From an uncultured Clostridia bacterium (GTDB lineage: Bacteria; Bacillota; Clostridia; Oscillospirales; Ruminococcaceae): a stretch of 60,278 nt of DNA. The stretch spans positions 1 through 60,278 of the forward strand of contig CANRJB010000015.1 of assembly GCA_947630845.1 (NCBI GenBank). Reading direction: 5' to 3'. The position numbers and the translations under genes were made by a program. Positions 17,605 through 44,473 of this stretch are shown one piece after another. The notes below the pieces were generated by a model. That model did not search any database and was not told the DNA's origin. It was given only the letters and a program-made list of their open reading frames with translations. Position 1 is the first letter of the stretch; the number at the start of each line of letters is the position of its first letter.

Positions 17605-17738
17605 ACCTTATCAAGAGTGGCTGAGGAACAGGTCCTGTGAAGCCCGGCAACCCGGTGAGAACCGAAGGTGCCAAATCCTGCGGTGTAACCGAGAGATGAG
17701 GAGATCATTCTGACATCCGGGAAACCGGATGTTTTTTT
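17605..17738 (+). promoter_or_regulatory. SAM-I (S-box) riboswitch with terminator platform
   Basis: The aptamer core is plain: TTATCAAGAGTGGCTGAGG, then GAAGCCCGGCAACC, GGTGCCAAATCC and the closing GAGAGATGAGGAG. A short expression platform follows: ACATCCGG (17713-17720), GAAA, CCGGATGT (17725-17732) and T7, a terminator ending ~10 bp before the metK ribosome site. High SAM should therefore shut down SAM synthetase synthesis (established for this class). The aptamer 3' end is approximate. Confidence 0.97.
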
Positions 17739-17754
17739 ATGGAGGAGAATAATT

Positions 17755-18924
17755 ATGAAACATTTGTTTACATCAGAATCTGTAACAGAAGGACATCCGG
17801 ACAAGATCTGTGACCAGATCTCTGATGCGGTACTGGATGCCTATTTAGCACAGGATCCTATGGCAAGAGTTGCATGTGAGACGGCTGTCACAACAGGCAT
17901 GATCCTCTGCATGGGGGAGATTTCCTCGAAGGCAAAAATCGACATTGCCAGAGTCGCACGGCAGGTAGTTGTAAATATTGGCTATGACCGTGCAAAATTC
18001 GGATTTGACGGACAGACCTGCAATGTGCTGACTGCCATTGATGAACAATCGCCGGACATTGCGATGGGTGTCAACGAGTCATATGACAGCACAGCTTCGC
18101 CAGAGACGGGCGCAGGCGATCAGGGGCTGATGTTTGGTTACGCATGCAGGGAGACACCGGAGCTGATGCCGCTGCCTATCTCACTTGCCCATAAGCTTGC
18201 CATCCGTTTGACAGAGGTGCGTAAGAATGGCATACTGCGTTATCTTCGCCCTGACGGCAAAACACAGGTCACAATCGAATATGACGACCAGAACAAGCCT
18301 GTCCGTGTGGATACGGTCGTCGTATCTACACAGCATGCCCCTGATATCCCCACACAGCAGATCCGGGAGGATATCAAGGAACTGGTTATCGAAGCTGTGA
18401 TTCCGAAGGAGCTGATGGATGCGCAGACAAAGTGTTTTATCAACCCGACCGGACGATTTGTTGTTGGCGGACCGCAGGGTGACTCCGGTCTGACGGGACG
18501 GAAGATCATTGTGGACACTTATGGCGGTTATGCACGGCATGGCGGCGGTGCTTTTTCTGGTAAAGACCCGACAAAAGTGGACAGAAGTGCAGCTTATGCA
18601 GCACGTTATATTGCCAAAAATGTCGTGGCAGCCGGGCTTGCGGATAGATGTGAGATACAGCTTGCATATGCGATCGGTGTGGCAAAGCCGGTATCAGTGC
18701 GTGTGGATACATTCGGTACCGGGACAGTGGCAGAGGACAAGCTGTCAGACGCTGTGCAGACGCTGTTCGACCTGACGCCTGACGGCATTATCAAAATGCT
18801 TGATCTGCGTCGCCCACAGTATCAGAAGGTCGCAGCTTATGGACATTTCGGTCGTGAGAATCTGAATGTGGCATGGGAAAAGACGGATATGGTCGATGCC
18901 CTGAAGAAAGCTGTGGAAGAATAA
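17755..18924 (+). CDS. metK: S-adenosylmethionine synthase
   Basis: Makes SAM from methionine and ATP. 389 residues; RBS GGAGG. Start [29 protein letters not shown] is the classic MetK N-terminus. [12 protein letters not shown] is the methionine/ATP signature hexapeptide region and [23 protein letters not shown] the P-loop-like region. Full length with no oddities. Controlled by the SAM-I riboswitch directly upstream. A long hairpin follows (18939-18980). Confidence 0.99.
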
Positions 18925-33258: not shown

Positions 33259-33320
33259 GAGATTCTTGAAAATTTTGTGATAGTATGTAAAAAATCAGGG
33301 AAGAAAAATGCGAAAACCCA

Positions 33321-33349
33321 TTGCAATCCGGATCAAAATATGTTATACT
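33321..33349 (+). promoter_or_regulatory. capA-like gene promoter
   Basis: TTGCAA (33321-33326), 17 bp, TATACT (33344-33349), 36 bp before the start codon at 33386. Confidence 0.75.
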
Positions 33350-33385
33350 ATATGCGAAAGAACTATTGCAGAAAGAAGGATTGGT

Positions 33386-34624
33386 ATGCGTTCCAGAATT
33401 ACAGCCGCTGTGTTGGCGGTATGGGTGATGATGGCGGCAGGGTGCGGCAGCATCAGCAGGACAGACCCGGAGTATGTTGTTACAGGAATGGCAGATCCTG
33501 TACCTGTTGAGACGATCCCGGCAGAGACAGAAACGGAAACTGCTTCCGTACAGAACAGCACGGCAAGCTTTCTTGCTGTGGGTGATGATCTGATCCATAG
33601 CCGTGTTTATATGACTGCCGCAGAGCATGCAGAAGAGGGGGAGGAGTATAATTTTGGCTACTGCTACCAGTATGTAGCAGATGAGGTTGCTGCGGCGGAT
33701 ATTGCATTTGTCAATCAGGAGACGGTCATCTGTGGCGATGACTATGAGATCACCGGTTCTAACCTTAACTTCAATTCCCCCACAGAGTTGGGGGATGCGC
33801 TCATTGACACGGGATTTGATATCATCTGCATGGCGAATAATCATGTGCTGGACAAGGGTGAATCCGGCATGAGTGCCTGTCTGGACTACTGGGACAGTCA
33901 GGTCGCAAAGCATCCTGACCTGACAGTGCTGGGAGCATACCGTGATTATCAGGACATGTATGATTACCGTATCCGGGAGGTCAATGGCATCAAGGTGGGG
34001 ATCCTTGCTTACACGGAGCATACGAACGGTTACTCGCTGCCGGGAGATTCCGAAATGGAGATTCCCTACACGACCGATACGGAGCTGATGCAGAAGCAGA
34101 TCACGGAGCTGAAGGAGCAGGTGGATTGCGTGGTGGTATCGGCACACTGGGGCGTGGAGGATACGCATGTGGTGACGGATGCAGTCAAGGCATTGGCACA
34201 GGATCTGATCGACTGGGGTGCAGATGTTGTCATCGGCACGGGACCGCATACACTCCAGACGATGGAATATCTCACCCGTCCGGACGGAACGCAGGGCTTT
34301 GTGTATTATTCATTGGGCAACTTCATTTCCGGGCAGACGGATAACTTCAATATGGTCGGCGGGATGGCGAAGTTTGACATTACCATGACGGACGGCACAG
34401 TGACCATCGAAAACCCGACCTGTACCCCCATCATCACACAGTATGAGACAGGCGGTCTGAAGGATGTCCGGGTCATTCCGTACTACCTTTATACGGATGA
34501 ACTTGTTGAAAATCATGGTGTGCCCTATTCTCCCGTCGGGACGCAGAAAAGCTGGAGCTGGGACATCATCAACACCATCATTGAGGAAAATGTGCCTGAG
34601 GCGTACCGGAGACTGGAGAAATAA
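33386..34624 (+). CDS. CapA-family lipoprotein
   Basis: 412 residues from ATG 33386 (MRSRITAAVLAVWVMMAAGC) behind AGAAAGGA; the lipobox MAAGC predicts an outer-membrane-face lipoprotein. The mature part is a calcineurin-like/CapA domain (PGA_cap): FLAVGDDLIHSRVY, VNQETVICGD, TGFDIICMANNHVLDKGESG, VKVGILAYTEHTNGY, VVVSAHWGVED and GTGPHTLQTMEYL, with metal-binding Asp/His/Asn residues. Relatives take part in poly-gamma-glutamate capsule making, but other capsule genes are absent, so the role is open. Confidence 0.92.
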   Translation: MRSRITAAVLAVWVMMAAGCGSISRTDPEYVVTGMADPVPVETIPAETETETASVQNSTASFLAVGDDLIHSRVYMTAAEHAEEGEEYNFGYCYQYVADEVAAADIAFVNQETVICGDDYEITGSNLNFNSPTELGDALIDTGFDIICMANNHVLDKGESGMSACLDYWDSQVAKHPDLTVLGAYRDYQDMYDYRIREVNGIKVGILAYTEHTNGYSLPGDSEMEIPYTTDTELMQKQITELKEQVDCVVVSAHWGVEDTHVVTDAVKALAQDLIDWGADVVIGTGPHTLQTMEYLTRPDGTQGFVYYSLGNFISGQTDNFNMVGGMAKFDITMTDGTVTIENPTCTPIITQYETGGLKDVRVIPYYLYTDELVENHGVPYSPVGTQKSWSWDIINTIIEENVPEAYRRLEK

Positions 34625-34693: not shown

Positions 34694-34898
34694 TTTACTT
34701 TTTTTCGTGAATGAGATATAATAAGTTATGTTAGGCAAGTTTGTGTCATGTGTACAGCGTGAAAAAAATAATTTTGTGAGTTTTGGACAAAATTGATCGT
34801 CAAATTGTGCAGAATGCATAAAGGAGAAAATGCATTTTTTACAGATTACACAAAATGTTGGAATTTCTCTTGACTTATGTGCTGTTTTGTCCTATAAT
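34694..34898 (+). promoter_or_regulatory. Two candidate promoters before the scaffoldin operon
   Basis: P1: TTTACT (34694-34699), 17 bp, TATAAT (34717-34722). P2: TTGACT (34870-34875), 17 bp, TATAAT (34893-34898), leaving a ~140-nt leader to scaC. Between them the DNA is very AT-rich, with ATGCAT-10 bp-ATGCAT followed by T6 (34814-34840), a weak hairpin that could end P1 transcripts. Nothing else is identifiable in 34625-35043. Confidence 0.6.
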
Positions 34899-35043: not shown

Positions 35044-35889
35044 ATGAGGGTAAGGAAAATGATTGCCGCTCTCGCAGCAGTAAGCATGCTGACGGCGTTT
35101 TCAGCACAGGCTGTAATGGCAGCGGATGCAATCACAATCTCAGCGGAAAAAGTCAAGGCAAAGGCAGGTGCAGAGTTCACGCTCAATATTGATATGAGTG
35201 GTGTTCCTGCGGAGGGCATTTCTGTATGTGAATTTGCTGTGACGTATGATCCGAGTGTTGTGACAGTATCAGGCGTGACAGCAGGTGGGATCGTTGGGAC
35301 TCCGGATGATTCCGGAATGGATGGCGCACCTACGTTCGGCAGCGATACTGCAACTGAAGGCATGGTGACGTTTACTTATGCCGTCGTACAGGATGATGCA
35401 GCTTATTACATCACTAAGGATGGTACGTTTGCAACGATCACTGGTAAAGTAGCTGAGGGTGCTGAAGCTGGTATGGAATCTCCGATCAAGATCGTGGCAA
35501 TCGAACGTCCGGTGACAGAGGGATCGACTGAAATGAATGATTCGATCTATGCCGGCAGAATTGACGGCAATGATCCATCAACTGCTGTTGTGACTACCTA
35601 TGATGTAACTGTGGCAGATGGCTCAGTGACAGTAGTCGGTGAGGGCGAAACACAGGCGACAGATGATACTTCTGGCGACGGTGATACGCTCTATGGTGAC
35701 GTTGACGAAGATGGTGCTGTAAAGATGGTCGACATGATTCTTCTGAACAAGTACCTCATGATTGGCGAACCGGTCACACCGCAGGGTCTGAAAAATGCGG
35801 ATGTAAACTGCGATGGCGAACCAGATCAGGGTGATGCGCTCAACATTCTGAGATCTGTGATCGGCCTCGTAGAACTTCCCATAAAGTAA
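35044..35889 (+). CDS. scaC: ScaC-like adaptor scaffoldin: one cohesin plus dockerin
   Basis: 281 residues from ATG 35044 (MRVRKMIAALAAVSMLTAF) behind GGAGG. Signal peptide to ~27. Cohesin at ~28-200: ITISAEKVKAKAGAEFTLNI, then CEFAVTYDPSVVTVSGVTAG. Threonine-rich linker, then a dockerin at ~215-281 with two calcium loops: YGDVDEDGAVKMVDMILLNKYL and NADVNCDGEPDQGDALNILRS. In R. flavefaciens ScaC has this make-up and swaps enzyme specificity on ScaA; I infer the same role. First gene of a three-gene cellulosome operon; the next start is 125 bp on. Confidence 0.85.
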   Translation: MRVRKMIAALAAVSMLTAFSAQAVMAADAITISAEKVKAKAGAEFTLNIDMSGVPAEGISVCEFAVTYDPSVVTVSGVTAGGIVGTPDDSGMDGAPTFGSDTATEGMVTFTYAVVQDDAAYYITKDGTFATITGKVAEGAEAGMESPIKIVAIERPVTEGSTEMNDSIYAGRIDGNDPSTAVVTTYDVTVADGSVTVVGEGETQATDDTSGDGDTLYGDVDEDGAVKMVDMILLNKYLMIGEPVTPQGLKNADVNCDGEPDQGDALNILRSVIGLVELPIK

Positions 35890-36014
35890 GTCGGGCTGCG
35901 TCTGTCTGACTGCTTGGTGGCAGTGCTGACATCATGTCAAGACGAAATGCAAAAGATGGTGCAGGCAGCGACAAATGTCTGTAAAACTTCAAGTTGAGAA
36001 AGGAAAAAACTATT

Positions 36015-37694
36015 ATGAAGAAGGTATTTTCTGCACTGACTGCCGCTGCGATGTGTGCAAGTCTGGCTTCAAGTGTCATGACGGCATTTGCAGTTTATGA
36101 TGAGAACACCGATATCACCTATGATCTGCGGATTGCTTCGTCAACTGCCGGCACGATCAGTGCGGACAAGAAGACAATTACTTTTGCAGATGCAGAATCT
36201 GCAAAGAACGCTGTTGTTACACTTCAGCAGTACATCGTGACCGATGATATCGAGTCGAGTAATATAGGACAGATCAATACAGGTTACACTGCAAGCAGCA
36301 GCAAGATCACATTCGGCAATGGTGCTGACTACAATGCACAAACTTACACGGAGCAGGAGATCACAGGCAGCAATGGCAAGACTGCTACCACGAAGAACTT
36401 TGTATCCTGTTTTGCTTATGTTAATGCTCTGGGACGCTTTAATTCTGGAACAAAGGTCTTTGGATGGAATTCAAAATCGGATTGGAAGGGCGACGGCTGG
36501 ACGTTTGAAAATCTGACGAAAGGTGATCCGACTGAGCTTGCAGCGGCTGACTGCTACTTCCTGATGTGGGCATACAGTGCGGACGATACTACCCGTCCTG
36601 ATGGCACTGATTCCCCTGCTTATCTTGGAGGAAAGTCTGATGCCTATCCGTTTACACAGTTTGATGCTACACTTGGCGATCTGACAGACGGCACATATGA
36701 GATCGGTTTTGTGGATTCTTACTACAATCCGACGTCTGACAGGACTATGCTTGCAAACAGTTTCATTGTTGTTAATGGACCAACAGTTAAGGTTACGTCT
36801 TTGAGTGGAGTCAATGTGGTTGTTGGTGATGCAACAACTCCGACAGAAGACCAGCCTGCAACAGACGATCAGCCCGCAACAGACGATCAGCCTGCAACAG
36901 ACGATCAGCCCGCAACAGGTGACCCACAGGGCGGCAACAAGGGAGATTATGACGATTTCACATGGTATGTGGATGATGCAACTTTTGACCCGTCAAAGGA
37001 CGATTTTGTAGTTGTTTCCATTCGTGTAGCCAAGGATCCCGGCATTGCTACTTATAATGTACAGTTGCTGATCGACGGTGTGACACCGCCTGAAGCAGGT
37101 TGGGTTGTTGCAGATACTGCACAGGGTGATGCATATTCATTCGGTGCATTCGACAAGAATCCGGATAAAGGTAAGGCAGCAGCCGGAGCAATGGGCAGCC
37201 AGTTGGATAACCTTGTTGCAGCAGATAAGGCAAGCGTCGTAGACTTCTATCTGCAGCCGGTCGATGCAACAAATTTGAAAGAGACGTATGCACTCTCCAT
37301 CAACGATGAACATGGTTCGTTGGAAGTTGCCAATTCTGATAGAGAGCAGTTGTCTCCGAATCTTGTAGGCGGTACGCTGACAGTTAAGGGCGGCGAGCCT
37401 ACCTCGGAAGATCCTTCACAGGGTGAGTCCACCACTCCGTCTGGCGATTACCTCATCGGTGATGTCAATGACAATGGTAAGGTTGAACTGGTTGACGTTG
37501 TTATGCTCAACAGATACCTCACAAAGTATGAAGATCAGGATCTGAATGCAAAGCAGATCGTTCAGGCAAATGCAATGCGTGGTGCTGGTGAGACTGATGA
37601 AAGCTCAACGGCTGCAAATCTGGATGGTACAGACTCCGTTGAGATTCTGAGATACCTCATCGGTAAGGTGACATCCCTGCCGACAGTGCAGTAA
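36015..37694 (+). CDS. scaA: ScaA-like primary scaffoldin: unknown N-terminal domain, one cohesin, dockerin
   Basis: 559 residues from ATG 36015 (MKKVFSALTAAAMCASLASS). Signal to ~27; N-terminal beta-rich domain of unknown kind (~28-270, containing two GF/SF-rich halves ending GTYEIGFVDSYYNP); four-fold P-A-T-D-D-Q linker (~275-305); cohesin (~311-457, DDFTWYVDDATFDPSKDDFV.. VQLLIDGVTPPEAGW); C-terminal dockerin (~477-558) with IGDVNDNGKVELVDVVMLNRY and a weaker second loop AANLDGTDSVEILRYLIG. R. flavefaciens ScaA has two or three cohesins; here only one plain one is seen. The cohesin is almost identical to cohesin 2 of scaB. Confidence 0.82.
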   Translation: MKKVFSALTAAAMCASLASSVMTAFAVYDENTDITYDLRIASSTAGTISADKKTITFADAESAKNAVVTLQQYIVTDDIESSNIGQINTGYTASSSKITFGNGADYNAQTYTEQEITGSNGKTATTKNFVSCFAYVNALGRFNSGTKVFGWNSKSDWKGDGWTFENLTKGDPTELAAADCYFLMWAYSADDTTRPDGTDSPAYLGGKSDAYPFTQFDATLGDLTDGTYEIGFVDSYYNPTSDRTMLANSFIVVNGPTVKVTSLSGVNVVVGDATTPTEDQPATDDQPATDDQPATDDQPATGDPQGGNKGDYDDFTWYVDDATFDPSKDDFVVVSIRVAKDPGIATYNVQLLIDGVTPPEAGWVVADTAQGDAYSFGAFDKNPDKGKAAAGAMGSQLDNLVAADKASVVDFYLQPVDATNLKETYALSINDEHGSLEVANSDREQLSPNLVGGTLTVKGGEPTSEDPSQGESTTPSGDYLIGDVNDNGKVELVDVVMLNRYLTKYEDQDLNAKQIVQANAMRGAGETDESSTAANLDGTDSVEILRYLIGKVTSLPTVQ

Positions 37695-37725
37695 GTTGGA
37701 TGCAGTTTGAAAAGCGCCTATAGCT

Positions 37726-37756
37726 CTATGTTCAGCCGGATTCCGGCTGAACATAG
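37726..37756. other. Perfect 14-bp hairpin between scaA and scaB
   Basis: CTATGTTCAGCCGG and CCGGCTGAACATAG flank a 3-base loop. No T run follows, so it is more likely an mRNA stability or processing element, or a partial terminator that tunes scaB relative to scaA. Confidence 0.65.
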
Positions 37757-37795
37757 TCATAAAGGTATGAAAAAATACAGAAAGGACTATGCACA

Positions 37796-40700
37796 ATGAA
37801 GAGATTTCTATCTGCATTGACTGCATTCTGCTTGTGTGCATCGACTATGGTATCGACTGTCCCTGCATCTGCACTGTATCTGGGTGATACAACTGCAGTG
37901 ATGGAGCAGGCGGATGGCGATTTTACATGGTATGTAGATGATGCGACCTATAACCCGGAAACTGATGACTTTGTAGTTGTTTCGGTAAAGGTAAAGGGTG
38001 ATCCCGGTATTTCTACTTACAATGTACAACTGCTGATCGATGGTATGACACCACTTGAGGCAGGTTGGGTCATTGCAGACACTGCACAGGGTGATGCATA
38101 TTCATTTGGTGCGTTTGACAAGAATCCGGATCTTGGTAAGGCAGCAGCCGGAGCCATGGGCAACCAGTTGGATAACCTTGTTGCAACAGATGGTGCAAGC
38201 GTTGTAGATTTCTATCTGCAGCCGGTCGATGCATCAAAGCTGAAAGGAGAGTATGCACTTTCCATCAACGATGAAGAGGGTTCGTTGGAAGTTGCCAATA
38301 CTGATAGAGTACAATTGTCTCCGACACTGGAGGGTGGTACGCTGACTGTAGTAGGCGGTGAAACACCTTCTGAGACTGAAAAACCGACTGATGCGCCAAC
38401 ACCTTCTGAGGCAGCTACGGATGCACCAGAACCGTCAGTAGCAGCGACAGAAGACCAGCCTGTAACAGGGGACACACAGGGCAGCAACAAGGGAGATTAT
38501 GACGATTTTACATGGTATGTGGATGATGCAACTTTTAACCCGAAAAAGGACGATTTTGTAGTTGTTTCCATTCGTGTAGCCAAGGATCCCGGCATTGCTA
38601 CTTATAATGTACAGTTGCTGATCGACGGTGTGACACCGCCTGAAGCAGGTTGGGTTGTTGCAGATACTGCACAGGGTGATGCATATTCATTCGGTGCATT
38701 CGACAAGAATCCGGATAAAGGTAAGGCAGCAGCCGGAGCAATGGGCAGCCAGTTGGATAACCTTGTTGCAGCAGATAAGGCAAGCGTTGTAGACTTCTAT
38801 CTGCAGCCGGTCGATGCAGCAAATCTGAAGAAGACGTATGAGCTTTCCATCAATGATGAACATGGTTCGTTGGAAGTTGCGAATACTGATAGAGAGCAGT
38901 TGTCTCCGAATCTTGTAGGCGGTATATTGACAGTTGTGACCGACGAAGACCCCACAGAGGAGCCTACGGAGGAACCCACTGACGAGCCTACGGAAGAACC
39001 TACTGAAGAACCCACAGTGGAGCCGAGCCATGCAGATTCCGCTGCAACGTGGGATATTGCTGACGAGGTTGAGGGTGCTGCCGGCAAGACTGTTCCTGTA
39101 CCGGTTACAGTTACAGATAATGACGGATTTAACAGCTTTATTGCACACTTCGAGGCAAAAGAAGGTCTGACGCTCGAAAGCGTTGAGAATGGTGCGTTTG
39201 CGAATCTGACACTGACCGATAATCTTGATAAGATGGCAGTTGCCGGTGCAGACTATACCACAGGTGCAGACCTGACAAGCGACGGCGATGTAATGATTCT
39301 GAACTTCAAGGTTCCGGATGATGCACAGCCGGGTGATGTTTATCCGATCAGCTTTGCTGATATGGAGCTGTACGACATTGACATGACAGAACTGACTCCG
39401 ACGCTTGAACCCGGTTCTATTATCATCCCTGACGTGGAGGATAGCACCACTCATGAACCTGATGATGCAGGCACATGGATTATCGGCGAGGTAGAAGCAG
39501 AGGCAGGCGAGACAGTCGTTGTACCTGTAACAATCGAAGGCGATAAGAATGGTCTGAACAGCTACATCATGAAGATGGGCATTGCAGAGGTTGACGGCGC
39601 AGCTCCGACGGTTGCATCGGCAGAGATCGGTGATGCACTGACAAACTTCACATTTGAATACAATGACGCAGTATTTGCAGGAACAGACTTTGAAGATGGA
39701 AAGAACATCGTAGCAAAGGATGGCGGCGCAGTATTCTATGTAACGTTTAATGTTCCGGCAGATGCACAGCCGGGTACACAGTATGATCTGACCTTTGACG
39801 AGCTGTCTGTGTATGACATTGATATGAATGCACTGACACCTGAAAAGGATCCGGGTTGGATCAAGATCAAGGAGCCTGAAACCACAGAAGAACCTACCGA
39901 AGAACCAACCGAAGAGCCTACAGAGGAACCCACTGAAGAGCCTACGGAAGAACCTACCGAGGAGCCTACGGAAACAAAGGCTGAACCTGATGATGCAGGC
40001 ACATGGATTATCGGTGAGGTAGAAGCAGAGGCAGGCGAGACAGTCGTTGTACCTGTAACAATCGAAGGCGATAAGAATGGTCTGAACAGCTACATCATGA
40101 AGATGGGCATTGCAGAGGTTGACGGCGCAGCTCCGACGGTTGCATCGGCAGAGATCGGTGATGCACTGACAAACTTCACATTTGAATACAATGACGCAGT
40201 ATTTGCAGGAACAGACTTTGAAGATGGAAAGAACATCGTAGCAAAGGATGGCGGCGCAGTATTCTATGTAACGTTTAATGTTCCGGCAGATGCACAGCCG
40301 GGTACACAGTATGATCTGACCTTTGATGAGCTGTCTGTGTATGACATTGATATGAATGCACTGACACCTGAAAAGGATCCGGGTTGGATCAAGATCAAGG
40401 AGTCTGAAACCACAGAAGAACCAACCGAAGAGCCTACAGAGGAATCCACTGAAGAGCCCACAGAGGAGCCTACGGAAGAACCCACTGAAGAGCCTACAGA
40501 AGAACCCACTGAAGAGCCTACAGAAGTACCTCCAGAGAAAACATATCAGGCAACATGGACGATTGGAAACAAGACTGTAAAGGCTGGCGAAGAAGCAGAG
40601 GTTGCTCTGAATGTTACAGTTGATGCGGATGAAGTAGAAGCTTTGACTTTGAATAGCTTTATCTTCACTGCTGGATTCAAGTCTGTGACAGGTATCACTT

Positions 40701-41722
40701 ATGAAGGCTATGATATTGGTGATGCTTATGCAATGGCAATTGAGGATAATGACAATGATGCTCATGATGTCATCTATGGAGACGGCTTGAAATTTGGCGG
40801 TACATCTACTGACGAAACTGGCGTAGCTGCTGAAAGCGGCAGTGTTGTAGTGACTTTGAAATTCAAGGTTTCTGCTGAAACAGCTGTTGGAAAGTATCCG
40901 GTTACATTCATCGGTGATGTTGAGGCAATTCGTCCTTCTATGAATTCCGTAGATGTAACAGAGGTCAATGGTTATATTGAAGTTGTTGAGGGAGACACCA
41001 AGACAGAATATGTTTATACTGCTGAGGGTCTGACCGATTGCTTCTTCTCACATGACGACAGACCGTTCCTGGATCAGGATTTCATTGGGAATATTCTCAC
41101 ATCTGTAAAGCGTCAAGAAGTTGTTAAGAACATATCTGATGGTACTGTAGTATCTGAGGGTGAGCTTGAAGATGTGGATCTCTCCAAGGTAGTTTCCATT
41201 GTAATTGATGGTACAGAGTGCGTAAGTGCTGCTGATGCCTATACGAAGCTGGCAGCTGGTTTGTATGTAGCTTCGCCATTCTCCGTAAAGATTGAGGATG
41301 ATGTGCTTACAGAACCTGAGATTGTTGAGGTTACTGGTGGCAATATCTATATTGGTCTGAAGGGTGATGCAAATCTGAATGGTGTAGTAGAGACAGCCGA
41401 TGCTGCAGCTGTACTGGTTTGGATTGCACAGAACGGCGCAGGTGTTGAGAATCCTTCTCTTCAGGAAAATGCTGATCTTGAGAATCTGGCATACTTCTTG
41501 GCAAATGTAGGAGGAGAATCCAAGGATCATGGTGCAACAATGGCTGGTTCTGATGTAGAATCCCCGCTGTACACCAATGATGCAAGCAATATTCTGGTTT
41601 ATATTGCAAGGCAGGGTGCCGGTGAAACGGTTGATTGGGTACCAACAATTTATGAACCCGGTGAGACTCCTGCAATTTCTCAGGCAATCTATGCTTGGGA
41701 TCAGGCACATAATGCAGGATAA
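37796..41722 (+). CDS. scaB: ScaB-like large scaffoldin: six cohesins, X-module and dockerin-like C-terminus
   Basis: 1308 residues, RBS AGAAAGGA. Signal peptide ~1-28. Cohesins 1 and 2 (~39-187, ~234-381) share the DDFTWYVDDAT..VQLLIDG type with ScaA. Cohesins 3-5 (~411-547, 554-693, 732-868) are of another type (TWDIADEVEGAAGKTVPVPV; GTWIIGEVEAEAGETVVVPV), and 4 and 5 are near copies. Cohesin 6 (~915-1068, ATWTIGNKTVKAGEEAEVAL) is a third variant. Acidic EEPT-repeat linkers separate them. The end has an X-module-like part (~1069-1187), then dockerin loops GDANLNGVVETADAAAVLVW and YTNDASNILVYIARQ. In R. flavefaciens, such ScaB holds ScaA and enzymes and docks to cell-wall ScaE (inference here). 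Confidence 0.85.
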   Translation: MKRFLSALTAFCLCASTMVSTVPASALYLGDTTAVMEQADGDFTWYVDDATYNPETDDFVVVSVKVKGDPGISTYNVQLLIDGMTPLEAGWVIADTAQGDAYSFGAFDKNPDLGKAAAGAMGNQLDNLVATDGASVVDFYLQPVDASKLKGEYALSINDEEGSLEVANTDRVQLSPTLEGGTLTVVGGETPSETEKPTDAPTPSEAATDAPEPSVAATEDQPVTGDTQGSNKGDYDDFTWYVDDATFNPKKDDFVVVSIRVAKDPGIATYNVQLLIDGVTPPEAGWVVADTAQGDAYSFGAFDKNPDKGKAAAGAMGSQLDNLVAADKASVVDFYLQPVDAANLKKTYELSINDEHGSLEVANTDREQLSPNLVGGILTVVTDEDPTEEPTEEPTDEPTEEPTEEPTVEPSHADSAATWDIADEVEGAAGKTVPVPVTVTDNDGFNSFIAHFEAKEGLTLESVENGAFANLTLTDNLDKMAVAGADYTTGADLTSDGDVMILNFKVPDDAQPGDVYPISFADMELYDIDMTELTPTLEPGSIIIPDVEDSTTHEPDDAGTWIIGEVEAEAGETVVVPVTIEGDKNGLNSYIMKMGIAEVDGAAPTVASAEIGDALTNFTFEYNDAVFAGTDFEDGKNIVAKDGGAVFYVTFNVPADAQPGTQYDLTFDELSVYDIDMNALTPEKDPGWIKIKEPETTEEPTEEPTEEPTEEPTEEPTEEPTEEPTETKAEPDDAGTWIIGEVEAEAGETVVVPVTIEGDKNGLNSYIMKMGIAEVDGAAPTVASAEIGDALTNFTFEYNDAVFAGTDFEDGKNIVAKDGGAVFYVTFNVPADAQPGTQYDLTFDELSVYDIDMNALTPEKDPGWIKIKESETTEEPTEEPTEESTEEPTEEPTEEPTEEPTEEPTEEPTEVPPEKTYQATWTIGNKTVKAGEEAEVALNVTVDADEVEALTLNSFIFTAGFKSVTGITYEGYDIGDAYAMAIEDNDNDAHDVIYGDGLKFGGTSTDETGVAAESGSVVVTLKFKVSAETAVGKYPVTFIGDVEAIRPSMNSVDVTEVNGYIEVVEGDTKTEYVYTAEGLTDCFFSHDDRPFLDQDFIGNILTSVKRQEVVKNISDGTVVSEGELEDVDLSKVVSIVIDGTECVSAADAYTKLAAGLYVASPFSVKIEDDVLTEPEIVEVTGGNIYIGLKGDANLNGVVETADAAAVLVWIAQNGAGVENPSLQENADLENLAYFLANVGGESKDHGATMAGSDVESPLYTNDASNILVYIARQGAGETVDWVPTIYEPGETPAISQAIYAWDQAHNAG
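39457..40402 (+). repeat. Tandem duplication of a cohesin module in scaB
   Basis: Segments of ~415 bp starting near 39457 and 39989 are almost identical at base level (from the GATGATGCAGGCACATGG start to GGGTTGGATCAAGATCAAGG), separated by an EEPT linker. Silent differences are few, which points to recent duplication or gene conversion. Confidence 0.92.
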
Positions 41723-41743: not shown

Positions 41744-41779
41744 AATACCGCTCAGGCATGGTCTGAGCGGTATTTTTTT
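41744..41779 (+). terminator. Terminator of the scaffoldin operon
   Basis: AATACCGCTCAG pairs with CTGAGCGGTATT around a 7-base loop, followed by TTTTTT. A strong Rho-independent terminator directly after scaB, so cttA/scaE are not downstream in this operon. Confidence 0.92.
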
Positions 41780-43060: not shown

Positions 43061-43393
43061 ATGCAAATTCATTACAACACAGAGACTGGTCAGCTCTTAG
43101 TCCAGCTCGATGGTGAAATTGACCATCACAGCAGCAATGCCCTCCGTGCAGAGGTCGATGCTGCCATCTATGCCCATCTGCCGCAGAGACTTATTCTGGA
43201 TTTCCGGAATGTCAGCTTTATGGACAGCTCCGGTATCGGGCTGATCATGGGTCGGTACAAAATTCTTCAGCCCCTCGGCAGCGAGATCATCCTCCAGAAT
43301 CCAGCCCCCCATATCAGCCGTATTCTCCGGCTCGCAGGTATGGAAAGACTTGCAAAAATACGCAGTGAAGTACAGAAGGAGGCGGTCAAATGA
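43061..43393 (+). CDS. spoIIAA: Anti-sigma F factor antagonist SpoIIAA
   Basis: 110 residues, RBS AAAGGATG. STAS-domain protein that, when dephosphorylated, frees sigma F from SpoIIAB in the forespore. The phospho-serine site is in VSFMDSSGIGLIMGRYK, and LVQLDGEIDHHSSNALRAEVD is the conserved N-terminal part. Its stop overlaps the spoIIAB start by 4 bp (ATGA), the standard operon order. Confidence 0.97.
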   Translation: MQIHYNTETGQLLVQLDGEIDHHSSNALRAEVDAAIYAHLPQRLILDFRNVSFMDSSGIGLIMGRYKILQPLGSEIILQNPAPHISRILRLAGMERLAKIRSEVQKEAVK

Positions 43394-43830
43394 AAATCAA
43401 CAACGAATTTCGATGCAGCTTTCCGGCAGTATCTGCCAATGAAGGGCTCGCAAGAGCAGCAGTGTCGGCATTTCTCATCCCGGCTGACCCCACTGCACAG
43501 GAACTTGCCGATCTGAGGACGGTCATCTCGGAGGCTGTCACGAATGCTATCGTCCATGGCTACCGGGAAACAGAGGGGGATGTATACGTGACGCTCCGCA
43601 TGCTCCCGGAACGAACGATCTACATACGTGTTGCCGACAAGGGTCGTGGCATCCCTGATGTGCAGAAAGCAATGGAACCCCTCTATACCACTGCACCTGA
43701 AGAAGATCGTGCAGGACTGGGGTTTGCCATCATGCAGACATTTACCGATACGCTCCATGTCCGCAGTACGCCCGGCAAAGGTACTGTCCTCATCATGCGG
43801 CGGCGGTTAGGGAAAACGGATGAAGCGTGA
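43390..43830 (+). CDS. spoIIAB: Anti-sigma F factor SpoIIAB
   Basis: 146 residues. GHKL-type serine kinase that binds sigma F and phosphorylates SpoIIAA. N box VISEAVTNAIVHGYRETEG, the G box VADKGRGIPDVQKAMEPLYTT and RAGLGFAIMQTFTDTLHVRSTPGKGT are all present. Overlaps spoIIAA by 4 bp and sigF by 11 bp. Confidence 0.97.
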   Translation: MKINNEFRCSFPAVSANEGLARAAVSAFLIPADPTAQELADLRTVISEAVTNAIVHGYRETEGDVYVTLRMLPERTIYIRVADKGRGIPDVQKAMEPLYTTAPEEDRAGLGFAIMQTFTDTLHVRSTPGKGTVLIMRRRLGKTDEA

Positions 43831-44473
43831 CCGTCCGGCAGCGGAAGAGCATCTCGGTCTGGTACATATGTGTGCCGGACGATTCCGGAACAGAGGCATT
43901 CCCTATGAAGACTTATACTCCGCCGGATGTGAGGGACTTGTCAAGGCGGCAAATGCCTTCGATGCTGCCCGTGGAGTGCAATTCTCGACCTATGCCGTCC
44001 CGGTCATTTTAGGGGAGATCAAGCGGCTGTTCCGGGAGGGCGGCACAGTGCATGTTTCCCGGAGTCTCCGGGAGCTTTCCATGAAGGTGCAGCAGATCCG
44101 GGAGAAGATCCTGAAAGAGACAGGCAATGACCCACCTCTTAGTATTCTCTCTGAGAAAACAGGAGCATCCCCGGAAGAAATCACCACAGCATTATGTGCA
44201 TGCAGCCCGGTGATGTCACTGACTGCTCCGGATGAGGAGGATGGTCAGATCGATATTGCCGTTGAAGCACCTGATGAGAAAATCAGCGACAGCATTGCCT
44301 TGCAGCAGGTCATGGCAACTCTTGCTCCTGCTGACCGACAGTTGCTGGAACTGCGTTATTATCAGGAACTGACACAGGTAAAAACCGCACAGCTCCTCGG
44401 CATGACACAGGTACAAGTCTCACGCAGGGAGAAAAAACTATTATTATATCTGCGGCAGGAGCTGCTGCGTTAA
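43820..44473 (+). CDS. sigF: RNA polymerase sporulation sigma factor F
   Basis: 217 residues (MKRDRPAAEEHLGLVHMCAG). Region 2: RFRNRGIPYEDLYSAGCEGLVKAANAFDAARGVQFSTYAVPVILGEIKRLFREGG. Region 3 around REKILKETGNDPPLSILSEKTG and region 4 ADRQLLELRYYQELTQVKTAQLLGMTQVQVSRREKKLL. The slightly short N-terminus lacks the usual leader residues. Third gene of the spoIIA operon; forespore-specific early transcription. Confidence 0.96.
   Translation: MKRDRPAAEEHLGLVHMCAGRFRNRGIPYEDLYSAGCEGLVKAANAFDAARGVQFSTYAVPVILGEIKRLFREGGTVHVSRSLRELSMKVQQIREKILKETGNDPPLSILSEKTGASPEEITTALCACSPVMSLTAPDEEDGQIDIAVEAPDEKISDSIALQQVMATLAPADRQLLELRYYQELTQVKTAQLLGMTQVQVSRREKKLLLYLRQELLR

Follow-up and report, generated by a model that had tools for sequence, protein, structure and literature searches.

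The window analysed here is the whole of contig C15 (bases 1-60278) from the genome of an uncultured Clostridia bacterium of the Ruminococcaceae, a gut relative of Ruminococcus, and it carries scaffoldin genes of a cellulosome. In Ruminococcus flavefaciens the layout described for such a system is a five-gene cluster, scaC-scaA-scaB-cttA-scaE (PMC4081043, PMC5301203, PMC5934362). Our results indicate a cellulosome of the R. flavefaciens type with its sca genes divided between two loci, scaC-scaA-scaB in the window and cttA-scaE on contig C6, and we give this reading a probability of about 0.87. It is based on gene content, on module order, on homology of the components to those of R. flavefaciens and on the recurrence of the split in relatives. 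Because the cttA-scaE pair exists elsewhere in the genome and the relatives examined share the separation, we read the arrangement as a gene-order trait of the lineage rather than a loss.

The scaC, scaA and scaB open reading frames (ORFs) lie consecutively on the + strand where the original prediction had placed them, with spacers of 125 bases (scaC-scaA) and 101 bases (scaA-scaB) and a purine-rich stretch ahead of each start. Inspection by eye revealed an N-terminus resembling a signal peptide on all three proteins, consistent with secretion. In ScaC, Pfam scored the cohesin at 75.9 bits and the dockerin at 41.1 bits, and the best solved match is Scaffoldin C (5lxv_A, expect value (E) 2e-25), so that the protein has the single type I-like cohesin and the dockerin of a ScaC. 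ScaB possesses many cohesins and ends in an X-dockerin in which the motifs FSHD and G(V/L)KGD are conserved. The gene names given in the original prediction are supported, and Pfam profiles yielded cohesin (PF00963) matches in ScaC and ScaB and a dockerin match in ScaC.

The number of cohesins was determined from several lines of evidence. Pfam identified four cohesin stretches in ScaB (89.3 bits for the whole protein) and the genome-wide PF00963 search three places within it; neither matched cohesins 1 and 2 of ScaB or the cohesin of ScaA. Ruminococcal cohesins are known to escape profile libraries (PMC11557425). The ScaA cohesin and ScaB cohesins 1 and 2 are 82-95% identical to one another. 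A profile of these three with the ScaA cohesins of 18 relatives matched the solved scaffoldin cohesins 5m2o_A (E 3e-8) and 5n5p_A (1e-6), and in the own genome it found 6/7 ScaA and ScaB cohesins. The one missed, ScaB cohesin 6, is divergent and shares 28.8% identity with cohesin 4 (E 6e-7). On this evidence the single ScaA cohesin and the six ScaB cohesins of the original prediction are upheld. ScaB cohesin 5 also matches 5n5p_A (E 3e-5), which comes from the R. flavefaciens complex of ScaB cohesin 5 with the ScaA dockerin (PMC5934362). Cohesins 4 and 5 of ScaB are identical at 417/420 bases and differ at 3 (window 39464-40411), a pattern best explained by very recent tandem duplication or gene conversion.

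The three genes probably form one operon that ends at the terminator 3' of scaB (Table 1). This terminator, predicted earlier as a strong one, was located at 41744-41774, and its 14-pair stem is the longest among 7 terminator-like sites in the region (chance expectation 4.8). The promoter-like site 5' of scaC is a consensus match only; 16 such sites were found in the region compared with 13.2 expected in shuffles.

Within the window, X-dockerin and ScaE profiles match ScaC and ScaB only, and neither cttA nor scaE was found by them in the remaining 18.5 kb of the contig 3' of scaB, as the original prediction had claimed. When the ScaB C-terminus was searched against the own genome, contig C6 proved to hold another X-dockerin gene (E 2e-37). 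A gene for a protein with one cohesin and a sortase signal lies 89 bases downstream of it. We assign the two as CttA and ScaE, an X-dockerin protein beside its putative anchor, and the suggestion that the anchor is encoded elsewhere is thereby borne out. The sortase motif of ScaE is SPETG rather than LPXTG, and S-P-x-T-G, a hydrophobic stretch and a final KKK were present in 21/21 ScaE proteins fetched from the genus, defined here by genome-search grouping as the own genome and 37 others. The own genome has 8 sortase places above the Pfam cut-off.

Family profiles were compared with solved structures. The genus-only X-dockerin profile matched R. flavefaciens CttA (4wkz_A, E 5e-13; 4iu2_B, E 1e-12) over positions 13-209 of 238, and the genus-only ScaE profile matched the solved ScaE cohesin 2zf9_A (E 1.4e-6). 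Profiles including sister-genus rows gave stronger values, 4e-28 (X-dockerin) and 7e-23 (ScaE), which were discounted as possibly driven by those rows. For the C6 CttA family (11 sequences), the N-terminus aligned with that of sister-genus CttA (3 sequences) at 99.9% in hhalign, using shallow alignments; the value was 99.7% minus the first 40 residues and 0.5% with one side reversed. In the R. flavefaciens-type system CttA binds cellulose through two carbohydrate-binding modules (CBMs). The long N-terminal region of the C6 protein includes a coiled-coil-like stretch and has no CBM in Pfam, and it is linked to CttA only by homology to the sister-genus N-terminus.

The lack of cttA and scaE in the 18.5 kb after scaB is also what would be seen if the strain had truly lost its anchor and CttA and its cellulosome attached in another way. 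We regard this as most improbable, since a cttA-scaE pair with matching modules exists on C6 of the same genome and sortases are present. The different mode of attachment raised in the original prediction is thus not supported, and the same applies to a shortened cluster particular to this strain, as the separation recurs in every relative that could be read beyond scaB.

To define this gene order, a ScaA search was carried out on 100 genomes (own and 99 relatives), and 22 genus ScaA loci were fetched (18 + 4). ScaC is ahead of ScaA in 22/22 loci. ScaB comes after ScaA in 21/22, the remaining one being at a contig end, and a capA-like gene is located 5' of scaC in 21/22. The scaB end and at least 2.1 kb beyond it are readable in 12 loci; the other 10 end first. 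In 12/12 readable loci cttA-scaE does not come directly after scaB. Profiles find no X-dockerin or ScaE gene within the visible 2.2 to 10.6 kb of 11 of them, and in the twelfth (L092) a ScaE gene is present ~9.2 kb from scaB on the opposite strand. Genes which we take to be aro genes of the shikimate pathway lie 3' of scaB in at least 6 of the 12.

Own ScaE was matched at E ≤ 0.001 in 32/38 genus genomes, own included; the weaker of these matches may be other cohesin proteins. Twenty ScaE loci were fetched from this list, and the ScaE profile matches all of them. An X-dockerin gene is directly upstream of ScaE on the same strand in 19/20, and in the twentieth the contig extends only 363 bases upstream of ScaE. 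Some of the tested proteins (15 and 11) had served to train the X-dockerin and ScaE profiles, but BLAST with own proteins had already found the 19 X-dockerin genes before the profile search.

We also considered whether the split is an artefact of assembly or binning, in which a five-gene cluster was broken or C6 derives from another organism. The genome assembly (2.03 Mb) consists of 43 contigs and is 91.8% complete, and the C6 pair is ~4.5 kb from a contig end, as such an artefact might produce. However, contig C15 continues for 18.5 kb with other sequence beyond scaB and its terminator, the stated contamination is 0.14%, and the 12/12 relatives show the same separation. Furthermore, both blocks are found on one contig in four relatives, with ~9 kb from scaB to scaE in G031, whereas in G022, G017 and G018 the distance measured from scaA to scaE is ~43, 56 and 82 kb, respectively. 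An artefact therefore seems highly implausible, and we retain the reading of one system encoded at two loci.

A search of 396 family genomes led to a sister genus (g20) with the other arrangement. The contiguous order scaC-scaA-scaB-cttA-scaE, which was found neither in the window nor in the 12 relatives readable beyond scaB, is present in 3/3 g20 loci where the contig allows (L199, L201 and L203), whereas L200 and L204 end inside scaB. The ScaE profile matched the three scaE genes at E 4e-4 (L199, weak), 1.5e-8 and 6e-12, and the X-dockerin profile matched the cttA genes at E 6e-14, 8e-22 and 6e-14. Because L201 CttA matches solved R. flavefaciens CttA (4iu2_B) at E 9e-46, g20 is considered to be of the R. 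flavefaciens type. The capA-like gene is 5' of scaC in L199, L200, L201 and L204 (4/5 loci); the fetched stretch of L203, whose scaB is broken by a run of unknown bases, is too short to reach that position. In locus L207, which belongs to a different genus (g141), the protein encoded between scaB and aroC has a tail that is hydrophobic and basic. No separate cttA was seen in L207, and the tail protein is unmatched by the ScaE profile and has no clear x-P-x-T-G. The common capA-scaC-scaA-scaB block points to one ancestral site.

In R. flavefaciens, the cohesins of ScaA and the ScaA-like cohesins of ScaB receive enzyme dockerins, and the remaining cohesins of ScaB receive the dockerin of ScaA. 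ScaC acts as an adaptor. ScaE, which is fixed to the wall by a sortase, is the partner of the X-dockerins on both ScaB and CttA (PMC5934362, PMC5301203). By analogy, the ScaA cohesin and ScaB cohesins 1-2 would bind enzyme dockerins, and ScaB cohesins 3-6 would take the ScaA dockerin, which would provide about six enzyme sites per ScaB (2 + 4 x 1). ScaC would attach via its enzyme-like dockerin and bring in a second dockerin set. The single ScaE cohesin would bind the X-dockerins of ScaB and CttA, and sortase would link ScaE to the cell wall. The own genome has 72 dockerin places at E ≤ 1, some of them weak. Among the best 30 of the 72, 10 have the signature MVDM/LNKYLMI (including that of ScaC), 12 have (F/Y/L)DL(A/S), 4 are other and 4 unparsed. 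These signatures would fit two dockerin sets, the first serving ScaA/ScaB and the second ScaC.

Several observations weigh against this interpretation. The earlier claim that each of the three proteins carries a cohesin and a dockerin stands, with Pfam matches for ScaC and an X-dockerin for ScaB, but the ScaA dockerin is under the Pfam cut-off (20.9 bits vs 22.9). All six solved-structure matches of ScaA are weak dockerin matches, the best being another dockerin, 4fl4_A (E 0.0024). The R. flavefaciens ScaA dockerin, 5n5p_B, gave the longest matching stretch (481-553) at E 0.012. On the supporting side, the ScaA dockerin motif VELVD(I/V)V.LNR was conserved in 18/18 alignment rows (window and 17 relatives) and a longer second loop in 14/18, window included. 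As in the R. flavefaciens system, ScaA combines a cohesin with its own dockerin type, which has an enlarged second calcium loop. In R. flavefaciens a single cohesin residue, Ala-811 (ScaA dockerin) as opposed to Lys (group 1 dockerins), is said to set the cohesin subtype. The corresponding column varied with alignment method, and no Lys was observed in ScaA-like cohesins in any run. Because the column is alignment-dependent, the division into enzyme-binding and ScaA-binding cohesins is drawn from overall similarity only.

At the second locus, Pfam finds no cohesin in own ScaE taken singly and no dockerin, CBM or CttA_N in own CttA; CttA_N was matched under its cut-off by proteins of two relatives. 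The assignment of ScaE and CttA is therefore made from family profiles. In the window, a perfect 13-pair hairpin without a T run occupies the scaA-scaB spacer (37727-37755), and it could mark a point between the two genes at which the mRNA is processed or transcription partly terminates. Finally, the binding specificities and the wiring are those that we infer by analogy, and other cohesin proteins (C2, C5) might also hold ScaB.

This last point can be taken further: C6 ScaE may serve mainly CttA, with ScaB held instead by a protein such as C2:95608-96198 or C5:66088-66960. The C2 protein, a predicted lipoprotein with one ScaE-like cohesin, would suit such a role, and enzyme-linked immunosorbent assay evidence from R. 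flavefaciens has the ScaB X-dockerin also binding cohesins G and H (PMC5301203). However, ScaE is recognised by the ScaB X-dockerin in R. flavefaciens according to the same paper, and the X-dockerins of ScaB and CttA are alike here, with 43% identity in alignment. We consider this alternative unlikely and favor ScaE as the anchor of both ScaB and CttA. A more ambitious idea, which we put forward tentatively, is that assembly is uncoupled from wall anchoring. The two loci would then be separately regulable transcription units, ScaE would have wider clients including the X-dockerin protein on C1, and one, perhaps two, lipoprotein cohesins would act as further surface docks, allowing the system to switch between free, membrane-held and wall-held states.

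Additional cohesin and X-dockerin proteins are encoded in the genome (Table 1). The N-terminal region of the C1 X-dockerin protein matches the ScaA N-terminal module (E 3.5e-18), and the protein is a possible further client of ScaE. This ScaA module of ~235 residues (window 36096-36833) is conserved across the genus and recurs in ScaA of the R. flavefaciens type, and the match to sister-genus ScaA is weaker (E 4e-14 to 2e-9). The module was compared with cohesins by hhalign. The idea of a hidden cohesin was unsupported, with 39% over 26 columns against ScaA cohesins and 3% and 1% against ScaE and ScaB cohesins, compared with 70% for the positive control (ScaA-ScaE cohesin). The C2 lipoprotein, which is adjacent to genes presumed to be nadC/nadB-like, is a possible membrane dock for cellulosome parts. 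The C5 lipoprotein is perhaps a decayed or permuted scaffoldin. A cohesin match at C5:66100 was rejected as the anchor, the ORF being this lipoprotein with its two incomplete cohesin pieces and ScaE having been found beside the second X-dockerin gene.

Other features were noted in passing. In relative G003 (L080:5014-10205) scaB is read as a pair of ORFs (510 and 1241 residues) that overlap and differ in frame, apparently a frame break or sequencing error. Downstream of the cellulosome block is a three-gene run (window 43061-44473) that we take to be a spoIIAA-spoIIAB-sigF-like sporulation locus. An S-adenosylmethionine (SAM) riboswitch (RF00162, 86.7 bits) is located at window 17605-17702, ahead of a 389-residue ORF (17755-18924).

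Table 1. Coordinates of the cellulosome genes and associated features. Positions without a contig prefix refer to the window; L-numbers give the position in the fetched locus.
Feature	Coordinates	Strand	Details
capA-like gene (family name presumed)	33308..34624	+	syntenic marker 5' of scaC, outside cellulosome; homologue at relatives' scaC loci
Promoter-like site 5' of scaC	34870..34898	+	consensus match, 11/12 positions
scaC, adaptor scaffoldin	35044..35889	+	signal peptide; type I-like cohesin 35134-35499; dockerin 35692-35847; Pfam and 5lxv_A
scaA	36015..37694	+	signal peptide; N-terminal module ~36096-36833; cohesin 36951-37382; ScaA-like dockerin ~37458-37691
scaB	37796..41722	+	signal peptide; six cohesins; C-terminal X-dockerin 40979-41713
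ScaB cohesins 1-2, ScaA-like	37916-38353, 38498-38932	+	
ScaB cohesins 3-6, other subtype	39038-39427, 39464-39868, 39992-40396, 40541-40984	+	
Intrinsic terminator 3' of scaB	41744..41774	+	14 pairs, 7 G-C, then TTTTTAATTC
CttA orthologue	C6:93045-95699		884 residues from MKKSF start; signal peptide, long N-terminal region, X-dockerin
ScaE	C6:95789-96757		322 residues; signal peptide, one cohesin, SPETG/hydrophobic/KKK tail
Third X-dockerin protein	C1:64252-65706 (L076:8253-9707)	-	X-dockerin profile 92 bits
Predicted lipoprotein (LTGC), one ScaE-like cohesin	C2:95608-96198 (L251:3609-4199)	-	196 residues; profile 74 bits
Predicted lipoprotein, two incomplete cohesin pieces	C5:66088-66960 (L036:8089-8961)	-	abrupt end; by eye
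Adaptor, one cohesin and one dockerin	C5:109335-110753		

A two-piece system with cohesins missed by Pfam changes the annotation of such genomes and averts a false reading of anchor loss. The split makes separate regulation of assembly and anchoring a testable question, and the conserved ScaA N-terminal module, which also occurs in an X-dockerin protein, offers a concrete target. Published work has taken scaC as the signature of ruminococcal cellulosomes (PMC11557425). No description of a split sca cluster was found in the titles and abstract openings of the papers listed by literature searches, and prior publication is possible.

The system shares with R. flavefaciens the same five kinds of protein in the same order within each block, X-dockerins on ScaB and CttA, a sortase signal on ScaE and, as in strain FD-1, two cohesin subtypes on one ScaB. 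It differs in the location of cttA-scaE at another locus and in an own CttA orthologue with a long coiled-coil-like stretch. Cohesin numbers also differ, with one in ScaA compared with two in FD-1, and six in ScaB (2 + 4) compared with nine in FD-1 (4 + 5) and seven in strain 17. Ruminococcus champanellensis 18P13, a human-gut species, likewise has ScaA, ScaB, ScaC and ScaE, with ScaE as anchor, and carries two cohesins on ScaA, seven on ScaB and 64 dockerins, against the 72 places, some weak, counted here (PMC8865330). This species may show the same split. A scaffoldin in the proteome of Ruminococcus sp. ERACg_42, from a rumen consortium, was reported as 6x cohesin_I-CttA and is built like the ScaB described here, although scaffoldins were not confidently classified in that work (PMC7480376).

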